52,426 nucleotides of DNA. It comes from Zavarzinia sp. (lineage in GTDB: Bacteria; Pseudomonadota; Alphaproteobacteria; Zavarziniales; Zavarziniaceae). Made by a program: the position numbers and the translations under genes. Shown here one piece after another: positions 25,243 to 33,509 of the stretch (positions are counted from its first letter, which is position 1; the number at the start of each line of letters is the position of its first letter). A model generated the notes under the pieces. The model had not been told where the DNA came from, ran no database searches, and saw only the letters and a list, made by a program, of their open reading frames with translations. The stretch spans positions 1 through 52,426 of the forward strand of contig JAOZVS010000121.1 in NCBI GenBank assembly GCA_025869435.1. The letters are read 5' to 3'.

Positions 25243-25682
25243 CAATGCTCTCCAAGACTTCCTCCCGCCGCCGGCACGGCCAGCGCGGCTTCACCCTGAT
25301 CGAACTTCTCGTCGTGCTGGCCATTCTCGGCCTGCTGGCGGCGGTGGTCGGGCCGCAGGTGCTGAAATATCTCGGCTCCTCGCGCACCCAGACGGCGCGG
25401 GTCCAGTTGCAGAATGTGACGGCCAGCCTCGAGCTCTATCGCCTCGATGTCGGCCGTTATCCGTCGCAGCAGGAAGGCCTCGCCGCCCTGATGGCGCCGC
25501 CCAAGACGGCGCCGGGCTGGAACGGCCCCTATCTTCGCCGGGCCGAGGCGCTGCGCGATCCCTGGGGCAATCCCTATCTCTACAAGATGCCGGGCGAGCA
25601 CGGCGAAGTGGATGTCTTCACCCTCGGCAACGACGGCGCCCCGGGCGGCACGGGCGAGGCGCAGGATGTCGGCAACTGGTGA
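25239..25682 (+). CDS. gspG: Type II secretion major pseudopilin GspG
   Basis: 147 residues. A short basic leader ends at the prepilin peptidase site QRG|FTLIELLVVLAILGLL with Glu5 present. The soluble domain has the GspG signature YPSQQEGLAALM, DPWGNPYLYKMPG and a C-terminal calcium-loop region (FTLGNDGAPGGTGEAQDVGN). It forms the shaft of the pseudopilus. The ATG overlaps the gspF stop (ATGA). Confidence 0.95.
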   Translation: MTMLSKTSSRRRHGQRGFTLIELLVVLAILGLLAAVVGPQVLKYLGSSRTQTARVQLQNVTASLELYRLDVGRYPSQQEGLAALMAPPKTAPGWNGPYLRRAEALRDPWGNPYLYKMPGEHGEVDVFTLGNDGAPGGTGEAQDVGNW

Positions 25683-27169: not shown

Positions 27170-28179
27170 TGGAACTGAAGGCCCTTCTCAATACCGACAT
27201 GACCACCCTTGGCCGGACCCTGAAGCGCGGCCTCGACTGGTGGGTCGGGGAATTGTCCGCCCTGGTGCCGGCCGGCTGGCGAGGCCGGTTGCTGCGTCCG
27301 CGCCTGTTCGTGGCGATCGAGGGCGGCGCGCCCGTGTTCTACCGGTCCGTGGCCGGGACCTGGCGTCCGGTCGGTCAGCCGGGCCGCGCCGCCGCCCGGG
27401 CCGCTCTCGTGGTGCCGCCGGAAGCGGTGCTGGTCGGCGACTTCGACTATCCGGTGCCGTCGCCGACCGAGCTTCGACGGATGCTCGCCCTCGATCTCGA
27501 CCGTTTGACGCCTTTCTCGGTGGAAGAGGCCGTGTTCGACGCCGAAACCGGCCCCGAGCCGGTGGCGAAGGGGGGGCTTCGCCGGATCAGCCTCGCGGTC
27601 ATGCGGCGCGAGGACCTGGCCCGCGATCTCGCCTTCCTCGCCGGCAAGGGCATCCATCCCGTCGCCGCCGGTCTCATGGGCGGGGACGGGGGCCTGCGCT
27701 TCGATTTCACCCGGGGTCTCGACAGCGGGGGCCGCAGCCGGGGCGGCCGGGTCGGGATGGCGCTTCGCGTCGGCCTGCCCGTGTTGCTGCTGGCCAATCT
27801 CGGCCTTCTCGTCCTTCGTGACGACTTCGCCCTGGCCACCCTGCGCGAGGCGGTCGATGGCCAGCGCCTGCAGGTCCAGCGGATCGAGCAGTTGCGCCGA
27901 CAGGTCGACCGCGAGGAAGCCCGCCGCCGCGATTTCCTCGCCCTCGCGCAGCGTCAGGCGCCGCTGCCCGTGCTCGACGCCATCACCCGGGCCTTGCCCG
28001 ACGATACTTACGCCACCCGCTTCGACTGGGACGGCAAGGCGCTGGTCCTCGTCGGCAAGGCGCCGGCGCCCGGGGCGGTGCCCGCCCTGGTCGAGGCGAC
28101 GGGTCTGTTCGAGACGGTCCGGCCGGAGAACGAAGGCCAGGGCTTCGGCCTGACCGCCACCGCGAAGGTGCGGCCATGA
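27151..28179 (+). CDS. gspL: Type II secretion GspL-like platform protein
   Basis: 342 residues. A short cytoplasmic actin-like/PilM-type part (FDYPVPSPTELRRMLALDLD, LTPFSVEEAVFD) is followed by one membrane span (about 205-222, VGLPVLLLANLGLLVL), a coiled coil (about 230-265) and a periplasmic PilN/GspL ferredoxin-like fold. Such short GspL forms link GspE to the membrane platform. ATG 27151 has AAGG upstream; ATG 27169, overlapping the gspJ stop as TGATG, is also possible. The assignment rests on topology and position between gspJ and gspM more than on strong motifs. Confidence 0.75.
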   Translation: MRGARLMELKALLNTDMTTLGRTLKRGLDWWVGELSALVPAGWRGRLLRPRLFVAIEGGAPVFYRSVAGTWRPVGQPGRAAARAALVVPPEAVLVGDFDYPVPSPTELRRMLALDLDRLTPFSVEEAVFDAETGPEPVAKGGLRRISLAVMRREDLARDLAFLAGKGIHPVAAGLMGGDGGLRFDFTRGLDSGGRSRGGRVGMALRVGLPVLLLANLGLLVLRDDFALATLREAVDGQRLQVQRIEQLRRQVDREEARRRDFLALAQRQAPLPVLDAITRALPDDTYATRFDWDGKALVLVGKAPAPGAVPALVEATGLFETVRPENEGQGFGLTATAKVRP

Positions 28180-28754
28180 GAGCCCTGAGCGCCCGCGAAA
28201 GCCGCCTGGTCGCCATCGGCCTGCTGGTCGCCGTCCTTCTCGGCATTCTCGGTCTCGTGGTGCAGCCCTTGGCGGAAGGCTTCCTGTCCCGGGCGGAGGA
28301 AAGGGCCGATCTCGAAGCGGAATACCAGCGGAACGCCCGCCTGCTCGATGGCGCCGCCGGGTGGCGGGCCGCCGCGGCGCGGCAGGCCGAAACCGCCCCC
28401 AGCTTCACCCTCGCGGCCGAAGACATGCCGGCCGCGACCGAAAACTTGCGCGGCCTTCTGGGCGAGGTCTTCACCGAAGCGGGCAGCCAGGTGCGCACGG
28501 TCAGCGAACAGGCGGCGCCGCGCCCCGGCTGGGCCGGCGCCGGCCTCGAAGCCGAGATGGCCCTGCCGCAGCTTCACGATGCGCTGTCGCGACTGGCGCG
28601 CGAGCATCCGCCGGTGATCGTCGACGGCATTTCGGTGACCACCCTTCGCAACGACGATATCGGCGCGGCCCCCCGGATTTCCGTGCGGATCGAGGTTTCG
28701 GCCCCGACCGCGCTTCGCCCGGCCGAAGGGGCGCCCGCCGCCGATGGCAACTGA
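28176..28754 (+). CDS. gspM: Type II secretion GspM-like protein
   Basis: 192 residues: a short cytoplasmic tip, one membrane span (LVAIGLLVAVLLGILGLVVQ), a coiled coil and a small periplasmic domain (LRGLLGEVFTEAGSQVRTVS, then MALPQLHDALSRLAREHPPV, then VDGISV). This is the GspM type b plan; GspM is the partner of GspL. It overlaps the gspL stop (ATGA) and the gspK start by 11 bp. Confidence 0.8.
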   Translation: MRALSARESRLVAIGLLVAVLLGILGLVVQPLAEGFLSRAEERADLEAEYQRNARLLDGAAGWRAAAARQAETAPSFTLAAEDMPAATENLRGLLGEVFTEAGSQVRTVSEQAAPRPGWAGAGLEAEMALPQLHDALSRLAREHPPVIVDGISVTTLRNDDIGAAPRISVRIEVSAPTALRPAEGAPAADGN

Positions 28755-29742
28755 GACGAAGATCGCGGCGCCGGGCCCCTCACCCCATCCCTCTCCCCGC
28801 AGGCGGGGCGAGGGGGCAGACCGAGGCGAGGCAGGCCCCCTCGCCCCCTTGGGGGAGAGGGATGGGGTAAGGGGCTTCACCCTGCCCCACGCCTCGCGGC
28901 AAACCCAGCGCGGTTTCGCCTTGCCGGCGGCGGTGCTCGGTGTCGCGATCTTCGCCTTGCTGGCCCTCGCCATCATCGACTGGGGCCGGGGCACGACGGC
29001 GCTGCTGCGGGCCGAGACCCTGCGCGTCCGGCTGGAAGCGGCGGCGGAAGCGGGCCTGAACCTCGCCATTCACGATCTCGCGATCGAGGATCGGACGCTG
29101 CGCTGGCCGGTGGGGGGCGGGCCGCGAAGGATCATGTTCGATGGCGTAACCCTCGACATCGCCATCGAGGACGAGCGGGGCAAGGTGCCGATCAATTCGG
29201 TCGACACGCCGGTGATCCGCGCCCTGCTCGCCCATGCCGGCGCCTCGGGCCTGCAGCTCGATGAACTGACCGATACGGTCGAGGACTGGATCGACGAGGA
29301 CGACACGCCCCGCCTGCACGGCGCCGAGAAGGATGCCTATGCCGGCACCGGCATCGTGCCGCGCAATGCCGGTTTCAGGACCATCGGCGAAATCGGCCTC
29401 GTCAAGGGCATGACGCCCCGGATGCTCGCCGTCGTCGCCCCCCTTGTCTCCCTGATCCCCCGGGCTGATGTCGGCATCGTCGACGGTCGGCGCGCCGGCC
29501 CCGATGTCCTCGCCATCATGTCGGGCCAGGGGGTGGACACATTCGCCGTCATCAACCGGCGTCGCGAGGAGGCCGGCCAGCAGGTCGCGATCGACATCGC
29601 CGACGACGAGCCGATCGCGCTTCAGATGGTCAGCATCCGGGTCACGGCCACCATGGCGGGCGGCATCCGTCTCGACCGCGTGACGACGGTCGAATTCACC
29701 GGCGATCCCCGACGTCCCTTCTGGATCCGCGCCGCCCGCTGA
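28744..29742 (+). CDS. gspK: Type II secretion tip pseudopilin GspK with repeat-derived leader
   Basis: 332 residues. The prepilin site RG|FALPAAVLGVAIFALLALA lies at residue 57-58 and lacks Glu5, as is usual for GspK. The large helical domain follows (KVPINSVDTPVIRALLAHAG, LTDTVEDWIDEDDTPRLHGA, FRTIGEIGLVKGMTPRML). GspK leaders are normally under about 15 residues; here 57 residues precede the site, and residues 11-44 are encoded by a palindromic repeat (28776-28874). An alternative start after the repeat is not obvious (a TTG inside its right arm is in a different position and lacks a site). So either the long leader is processed or the true start is unusual. Last gene of the gsp operon. 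Confidence 0.85.
   Translation: MATETKIAAPGPSPHPSPRRRGEGADRGEAGPLAPLGERDGVRGFTLPHASRQTQRGFALPAAVLGVAIFALLALAIIDWGRGTTALLRAETLRVRLEAAAEAGLNLAIHDLAIEDRTLRWPVGGGPRRIMFDGVTLDIAIEDERGKVPINSVDTPVIRALLAHAGASGLQLDELTDTVEDWIDEDDTPRLHGAEKDAYAGTGIVPRNAGFRTIGEIGLVKGMTPRMLAVVAPLVSLIPRADVGIVDGRRAGPDVLAIMSGQGVDTFAVINRRREEAGQQVAIDIADDEPIALQMVSIRVTATMAGGIRLDRVTTVEFTGDPRRPFWIRAAR
28776..28874. repeat. Palindromic repeat element inserted in the gspK leader
   Basis: Two 23-bp arms (28776-28798 and 28852-28874) are inverted repeats with one mismatch, of the CCCCTCACCCCATCCCTC / GAGGGATGGGGTAAGGGG type that is scattered between genes in many proteobacteria. An inner inverted repeat (GGGGCGAGGGGGC with GCCCCCTCGCCCC) extends the hairpin. 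The unit is 99 bp, a multiple of three, and it keeps the gspK frame open. It encodes a proline- and arginine-rich segment (PHPSPRRRGEG then PLAPLGERDGVRG). Confidence 0.85.
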
Positions 29743-31529: not shown

Positions 31530-33509
31530 ATGGTTTCCGCAAAAGGGTTTGGGGCGATGCAACGCAAGGGGGCCGGGTTCGTCCTGGCGGTGATGCTGGG
31601 CCTGCTGGCCGGCCTGACGATGCTGCCGGGTTCCGCCAGGGCCTGGTGGAATGACGAATGGACGCTGCGCAAGCAGCTGACCATCGACACCGGCGCGACC
31701 GGGGCGGGCATCACCGATCCGGTGGGCACCAGTCCGGTGCTGATCCGCCTGCACAGCGGCAATTTCCAGTTCGAGCGCGCGAAGCAGGACGGCGCCGACA
31801 TCCGCTTCGTCGCCGAGGACGATACGACACCGCTGAAGTATCATGTCGAGAAGTTCGACAGCCTGATGGGCGAGGCCTTCGTCTGGGTCTCGGTGCCCGA
31901 CGTGAAGCCCGGCGCGCAGGCCAGGCTGTGGCTCTATTACGCCAATCCGAACGCGGCCGGCGCGGAAGAGGCCAAGGCGACTTTCGATCCCGATACGCTG
32001 CTGGTCTATCACTTCACGGAAAACGGCCTGCCGGTCCGGGACTACACGACCTGGAACAACACGGCGGAGACGGCGGGCGTGACCGCCGACGGCTCGATGA
32101 TCGGGCGCGGCCTTCGCCTCGACGGCCAGACCCCGGTGACCCTGCCGGCCTCCGCCTCCCTCGCCGTCGCCAATGGCGCTGCGCTCACCTGGTCGGCCTG
32201 GGTCAAGGCCGATGCCGATCAGCCCAAGGCCCTGATCTACAGCCGGCGCGACGGTGTCGCCGGCCTCGACATCGGCATGGACAATGGCGTGGCCTTCGTC
32301 GAGCTGCGCAACGGCTTCGGTCTGCAGCGGATGACTGCCCCCGCCGCCCTGGCCGCCGGCACCTGGCATCACATCGCGGTAACCGCCGATGGCACGCGGC
32401 TTCGTCTCTTCGTCGACGGTCTGCCGCAGGTGGAAATCGCGGGGGCGCTCGCGGCGATGAACACGCCCGCCCTTCTCGGCGCGGATGCCGCGCCCGCCCC
32501 GGCGCCGGTGATCGCGCCCGAGCCCGCGCCGGCAATCGACGGCGCGGCCGAAGCCGCCGCCCCGGTCGCGGAAATCGCGGCGCCGGCTCTTCCCGTCTAC
32601 ACGGGGTTCGCGGGCGAGATCGACGAGCTGCAGATTGCCAAAATCGCGCGGCCCGCGGGCTTCATCCGTCTGGCCGCCCTCGGCCAGGGCGGGGACAGCG
32701 CCAAGCTCCTGTCGCTCAGCATGGACGAGGAAACGACGACCTGGCTGACCGGTCATTTCGCGGTGATCGTGAAATCGGTCACCCTCGATGCCTGGGTGGT
32801 GATCGGCATTCTCGCGGTGATGGCGGTGATTTCCTGGGTCGTCGTCGCCGGCAAGATGTCCTACGTCGGCCGCCAGCAGAGGGCCAACAGCCGCTTCCTC
32901 GAAGCCTATGACCGGATCGCGGGCGACTTCTCCGTGCTCGAGGCCGGCAAGGCCGATGACGCCGGCACCATGGGCGGGCATCTGTCCAGGGCCGATCTGC
33001 GGCTGGTGCGGCATTCCGCGCTGTACCGGGTGTTCAACGCGGGCCTGCACGAAATCCACCGCCGCTTCGCCGGCGCGAAGCCGGGGGCGCGCTGGCTGAA
33101 GGCGGAATCGATCGCCGCCATCCGCGCCAGCCTCGACGCCACCCAGGTGCGCGAGCTTCAGAAGCTGAACCGCCAGATCGTGGTCCTGACCATCGCCATC
33201 TCGGGCGGGCCCTTCCTCGGCCTGCTCGGCACCGTGGTCGGCGTGATGATCACCTTCGCGGCGATCGCGGCTTCGGGCGACGTCAACGTGAACGCGATCG
33301 CGCCGGGCATCGCCGCCGCCCTGCTGGCCACCGTGGCCGGCCTCGCGGTCGCGATCCCCGCGCTCTTCGCCTATAATTACCTGAACTCGCGCATCAAGGA
33401 TGCGTCGGCGGACATTCAGGTCTTCGTCGACGAATTCATCACTCGCCTCGCCGAATTCTATGCCTGGTCGCCCGAGACGCGGGTCGACGACACGCTCGCG
33501 GCGGAGTGA
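31530..33509 (+). CDS. DUF2341-LamG-ExbB/TolQ fusion protein
   Basis: 659 residues. Signal peptide (GFVLAVMLGLLAGLTMLPGS), then a DUF2341 domain (about 38-150, WWNDEWTLRKQLTID, VLIRLHSGNFQF, LWLYYANPNA). A LamG/concanavalin-like domain (about 170-385, WSAWVKADADQP, GTWHHIAVTADGTRLRLFVD) is interrupted by an Ala/Pro-rich loop (about 315-360). A membrane span (about 412-435) leads to a MotA/TolQ/ExbB proton-channel domain (about 440-640, GGPFLGLLGTVVGVMITFA, IAPGIAAALLATVAGLAVAI). ExbB normally lacks large periplasmic domains; here sugar/protein-binding folds are joined to the proton channel. It overlaps exbD by four bases (GTGA). Confidence 0.88.
   Translation: MVSAKGFGAMQRKGAGFVLAVMLGLLAGLTMLPGSARAWWNDEWTLRKQLTIDTGATGAGITDPVGTSPVLIRLHSGNFQFERAKQDGADIRFVAEDDTTPLKYHVEKFDSLMGEAFVWVSVPDVKPGAQARLWLYYANPNAAGAEEAKATFDPDTLLVYHFTENGLPVRDYTTWNNTAETAGVTADGSMIGRGLRLDGQTPVTLPASASLAVANGAALTWSAWVKADADQPKALIYSRRDGVAGLDIGMDNGVAFVELRNGFGLQRMTAPAALAAGTWHHIAVTADGTRLRLFVDGLPQVEIAGALAAMNTPALLGADAAPAPAPVIAPEPAPAIDGAAEAAAPVAEIAAPALPVYTGFAGEIDELQIAKIARPAGFIRLAALGQGGDSAKLLSLSMDEETTTWLTGHFAVIVKSVTLDAWVVIGILAVMAVISWVVVAGKMSYVGRQQRANSRFLEAYDRIAGDFSVLEAGKADDAGTMGGHLSRADLRLVRHSALYRVFNAGLHEIHRRFAGAKPGARWLKAESIAAIRASLDATQVRELQKLNRQIVVLTIAISGGPFLGLLGTVVGVMITFAAIAASGDVNVNAIAPGIAAALLATVAGLAVAIPALFAYNYLNSRIKDASADIQVFVDEFITRLAEFYAWSPETRVDDTLAAE

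Follow-up and report, generated by a model that had tools for sequence, protein, structure and literature searches.

The window analysed here is a 52,426-nucleotide stretch of a Zavarzinia MAG (GenBank GCA_025869435.1, contig JAOZVS010000121.1; 3.5 Mb, 75.5% complete, 171 contigs), and the insertion described below is known from this one assembly. The window contains an operon in the order gspE-F-G-H-I-J-L-M-K, with gspK as its last gene (Table 1). The gspK ORF matches Pfam T2SSK_1st (E=1.9e-14) and NCBIfam T2SS_GspK (E=2e-19, which is under the curated cut-off of that model), and its domain, its gsp operon context and its class III prepilin site are together those of a GspK minor pseudopilin. 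The only ATG in gspK overlaps the gspM stop, and the palindromic element that follows it runs from within codon 11 to within codon 44. The motif QRG^FALPAAVLG places prepilin cleavage after residue 57, a leader length that presupposes ATG 28744 as the start. The initial annotation had placed a 99-bp palindrome in the gspK frame between the start and the prepilin site, and the sequence, the fold and the RG^F motif confirm this. Elsewhere in the window, positions 31530-33509 encode a channel protein of the ExbB/MotA type, whose N-terminus carries a DUF2341 and a laminin-G-like domain and which is followed by ExbD and TonB, and a tandem duplication with a period of 498-499 bp and 83-88% identity is found near the contig end (51568-52398).

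Table 1. Features at the gspM-gspK junction, and repeat copies forming the ends of other genes in Zavarzinia
Feature	Position	Strand	Remark
gspM, upstream gene	28176..28754	+	stop 28752-28754; element starts 22 nt past stop
gspK, minor pseudopilin	28744..29742	+	332 aa, read from ATG 28744
Extended GspK leader	28744..28914	+	57 codons, up to RG^F prepilin cleavage site
ACG, codon 5 of gspK	28756..28758	+	site of the Z. aquatilis gspK ATG start
Palindromic element (two GC-rich TM intrastrand triplex motifs, inverted)	28776..28874	+	99 bp
Left TM half	28777..28814	-	fits loosened pattern only
Right TM half	28838..28873	+	published TM pattern, one mismatch (GGGTAAGGG for GGGNGAGGG)
Alternative in-frame TTG	28849..28851	+	within element, 22-residue leader
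GGCTTCACCCTG at element 3' end	28873..28884	+	same as GFTL codons of gspG (25287-25298)
Alternative in-frame CTG	28882..28884	+	just past element, 11-residue leader
Element as C-terminal tail of methyltransferase	L155:1523-1621		
Element as C-terminal tail of TetR regulator	L202:1492-1581		
Element as C-terminal tail of GtrA-like protein	L185:1482-1570		

The arms of the element (28775-28814 and 28836-28875) are 40 nt each and 83% complementary, and they rank first among the inverted pairs listed for the window. Folded as RNA, the 99-nt element reaches -92.3 kcal/mol versus -55.1 +/- 4.3 kcal/mol for shuffled sequences (z -8.6), none of which folded as well. The TM motif, a G/C-rich intrastrand triplex, has the pattern CCCTCNCCC-N3-6-GGGNGAGGG-N3-GGGNGAGGG (Holder et al. 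2015, citing Hoyne et al. and Maher et al.; PMC4666352). With at most one mismatch allowed, this pattern is found in the right half of the element, whereas the first loop of the left half is 8 nt long instead of the published 3-6 nt and therefore requires a loosened pattern; shuffled sequence gave no matches to the TM pattern. A literature search with the G-rich arm led to the same publication, a search with the C-rich arm gave no match, and Rfam returned only chance matches under the gathering score (microRNA hairpins and an antizyme element). Judged by its sequence, the element consists of two inverted copies of the known TM/PIT repeat of Holder et al. (PMC4666352), with which it shares the motif order, the inverted pairs also seen in E. 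coli, the many copies and the proteobacterial host. It differs in the longer first loop of the left half and in its location, as every TM/PIT copy in E. coli MG1655 is described as intergenic (PMC4666352), whereas here one copy lies between the start of a gene and its mature part.

The 31 full elements compared mostly end in CCCCTCACC/GGTGAGGGG, and the GTG that is typical of the 3' end is GTA in the gspK copy. The 3' end of the gspK copy also yields a decoy-like RG^FTLP, created by GGCTTCACCCTG, 13 residues ahead of the real GspK cleavage site; the identity of this stretch to the GFTL codons of gspG may be due to chance.

Matches to CTCACCCNNNCCCTCTCCCC with no more than one mismatch numbered 15 in the genome itself and 21-51 in five other Zavarzinia, while the reversed control pattern gave 0 in the same genome and 0-1 over the Zavarzinia genomes. 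With 15 matches against none for the control, the repeat is not a product of chance. No such match was found in one genome of the family's other genus. Outside this genus too the exact pattern is present: 25 of 233 good genomes of Alphaproteobacteria, Zavarzinia included, contain it. Bearing on a possible kinship with the rhizobial RIME elements, copies with 82% identity are present on S. meliloti plasmids with no annotation beneath the match.

The genomic setting of the copies was assessed, with genes called by codon usage, in 80 stretches taken from the source genome and four relatives, plus further loci of the source genome. Forty of the 92 places were between convergent genes, 40 between codirectional and 3 between divergent genes, 6 overlapped a called gene and 3 were at contig ends. 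Eighty-three of the 89 classifiable places were thus outside called genes, counts which are approximate since they rest on fetched stretches and a home-made gene caller. The median distance of the copies was 29.5 nt to neighbouring stop codons and 75 nt to gene starts. The family is multi-copy, dispersed and mostly intergenic, in line with the intergenic-type repeat of the initial annotation, and the gspK copy departs from this if translation begins at ATG 28744; it was counted as intergenic because the codon-usage caller places the gspK start at 28933. Its distance from the gspM stop makes its address ordinary, and the oddity is that the next gene starts there. Four of the six frames are open in 23 of the 31 full elements. 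As this applies to most copies, an open frame is weak evidence, and reading in frame is no sign of adaptation.

Visual inspection of the 31 full copies showed no common flanking repeat that would indicate target-site duplication. REP/BIME elements of the GTAG and CGTC families (PMC3733652) are likewise short palindromes located mostly downstream of genes, with some within genes, but the gspK element ends without a GTAG/CGTC tag. Such tags are absent from most full copies, and no Y1 transposase (Y1_Tnp) domain was found in two copy-rich Zavarzinia genomes (Z. marina and G003). Membership in the RAYT-associated REPs was not supported by these observations, and mobilisation by a RAYT was rejected given the missing Y1_Tnp domain in the two genomes.

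In Z. aquatilis HR-AS, the closest relative, gspM is followed by TGAGATGCGTGCC and the site is empty, with a 12-residue GspK leader (MRAAGTPRRQRG). In four more relatives the repeat is absent and the leader has 10-11 residues, and the minimum leader length possible in each of 38 GspK relatives, which come from several phyla, is 3-26 residues (median 10). The short, repeat-free leaders of the relatives and the empty site in Z. aquatilis indicate that the insertion is derived in this lineage. The net difference in length to Z. aquatilis is +123 nt, made up of the 99-bp element and 24 nt of diverged or added flank. Two of the checks proposed with the initial annotation, a search for an empty site in close relatives and a count of copies in the genome, came out in favour of an inserted repeat.

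The mature part of GspK is without stops and 82% identical to that of Z. aquatilis, compared with 74-95% for the other gsp genes. At the sequence level gspK is intact, and its divergence is no greater than that of its operon neighbours. Apart from the gspE-K operon, another contig of the same genome (C32:6203-7981) encodes secretin (gspD-like) and prepilin peptidase domains close together, so that processing of GspK is possible.

The probable explanation is that a TM/PIT copy inserted past the gspM stop is read through from ATG 28744 and cleaved off with the leader, and that its effect is nearly neutral. The palindrome would have landed shortly after the gspM stop, its usual address, where gspK begins. 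Because the inserted DNA is stop-free and keeps the frame, gspK is most likely translated from ATG 28744 through the element. With an SD-like site (-7.6 kcal/mol) at 11 nt, this ATG is suited to translation coupled to that of gspM, and the result would be a leader of 57 residues instead of about 12. Prepilin peptidase would then cut at QRG^FALP, and as the extra peptide would be discarded, mature GspK would be unchanged and the insertion nearly neutral. That the insertion is tolerated within the leader, as first suggested, is supported by the intact gspK, the peptidase gene and the empty site of Z. aquatilis. Against this explanation, 57 residues exceeds every shortest possible leader in the 38 relatives, whereas the leaders from TTG 28849 and CTG 28882 are within the usual range, and the codon-usage caller does not recognise the leader as coding. 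Two other possible starts are missing, since gspK has ACG where the relative has its ATG, and the element has GTA in place of the usual GTG.

The two remaining in-frame codons are the basis of the main alternative, in which gspK starts at CTG 28882 or TTG 28849 and the element, untranslated or partly so, is a 5' leader RNA lending an SD-like sequence (TAAGGGG). We regard this as unlikely, yet as a reading to be taken seriously. The leader from the CTG matches those of relatives in length, and an SD-like GTAAGGGGC (-6.5 kcal/mol) lies 6 nt upstream of it; a copy in hemW (see below) also supplies in-frame GTG codons near the protein core. However, the SD-like sequence is mostly in the 3' arm of the -92 kcal/mol hairpin, CTG is a rare bacterial start, and CTG 28882 is about 127 nt beyond the gspM stop, far from coupling distance. 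TTG 28849 is wholly paired in the hairpin (probability of being unpaired 0.0) and has no good SD.

The initial annotation considered the palindrome domesticated and able to tune the amount of GspK. Under such domestication, the hairpin or the long leader would be kept for lowering or tuning GspK relative to the other pseudopilins, which agrees with the very stable RNA hairpin and with its position at an operon junction ahead of the gene for a tip subunit of which few copies are required. The claim goes beyond the evidence, as the insertion is known from one genome only and its arms are still almost symmetric like those of other copies; we consider it improbable. Slightly less credible still is an impaired gspK, whose translation would be lowered or lost altogether because of the inserted DNA and the missing former ATG, as a form of early gene decay. 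An ACG where the relative has its starting ATG, a GTA in place of GTG in the element and the strong hairpin in the 5' region would fit, but the coding sequence is intact and conserved like its neighbours, and one start codon remains.

Copies of the element seem to break the assembly, as suggested by the closest other copy in the genome (92% identity), which is located exactly at a contig end (C128:1-89). An assembly error with a mis-joined repeat, conceivable given this copy and the fragmentation into 171 contigs, is nevertheless very improbable, since usual reads are longer than a 99-bp repeat, the sequence on either side is that expected for gspM and gspK, and the gspK copy is not identical to any other found.

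A second in-frame copy occurs near the start of hemW (NCBIfam TIGR00539, over cut-off) in the same genome (C151) and in Z. aquatilis (C36), at loci L209:1491-2762 and L204:1493-2770. This copy begins directly after the stop of the preceding gene. Between the two genomes, the region differs by substitutions and one 6-nt deletion, and the frame stays open; the site lacks the element in Z. marina and in the relatives G002 and G006. The hemW case is only supportive because in-frame GTG codons at the end of the element could act as starts. In other Zavarzinia, three called genes terminate within or just beyond an element (Table 1). It is tempting, though speculative, to view TM repeats as repeatedly supplying Zavarzinia proteins with new ends. 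Stop-poor palindromes just after stops in tight operons would turn into leaders at the N-terminus (gspK, hemW) or tails at the C-terminus, and selection would maintain some of them as translated sequence that carries a regulatory hairpin.

Rickettsia RPEs are palindromic repeats of about 100-150 bp found in frame in genes whose products are likely functional (PMC2229807, PMC3733652). The gspK element appears comparable, being an in-frame palindromic repeat with an open frame in a conserved gene whose Z. aquatilis orthologue is empty. The resemblance to Rickettsia palindromes drawn in the initial annotation is one of kind, whereas in sequence the element belongs to TM/PIT, and no RPE model was among the NCBIfam matches at E<=1. 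Other differences are the lineage, the sequence as far as the NCBIfam models show, and the fact that RPEs are found in many genes, whereas the insert peptide of GspK would leave with the leader. In Yersinia, the YPAL/RU-2 fusion YPO1552 has a small mobile repeat as part of an N-terminal signal peptide (PMC2229807). There, the repeat encodes a hydrophobic part of the signal peptide in a putative new protein, whereas in gspK it forms an extension before the prepilin site of a conserved gene. This kind of event is already known from Rickettsia RPEs and Yersinia (PMC2229807, PMC3733652), and what is new is the TM family and the prepilin leader.

A previously unnamed palindrome is now tied to a described repeat family, and represents no new system but a tidy case in which the insertion of a repeat is tolerated. 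For annotators, start codons beside such repeats are unreliable. The gspK copy suggests that a repeat called strictly intergenic in E. coli can occupy the translated start of a conserved gene if the lengthened part is removed, and leaders that are cut off may offer repeats a harmless place to insert.
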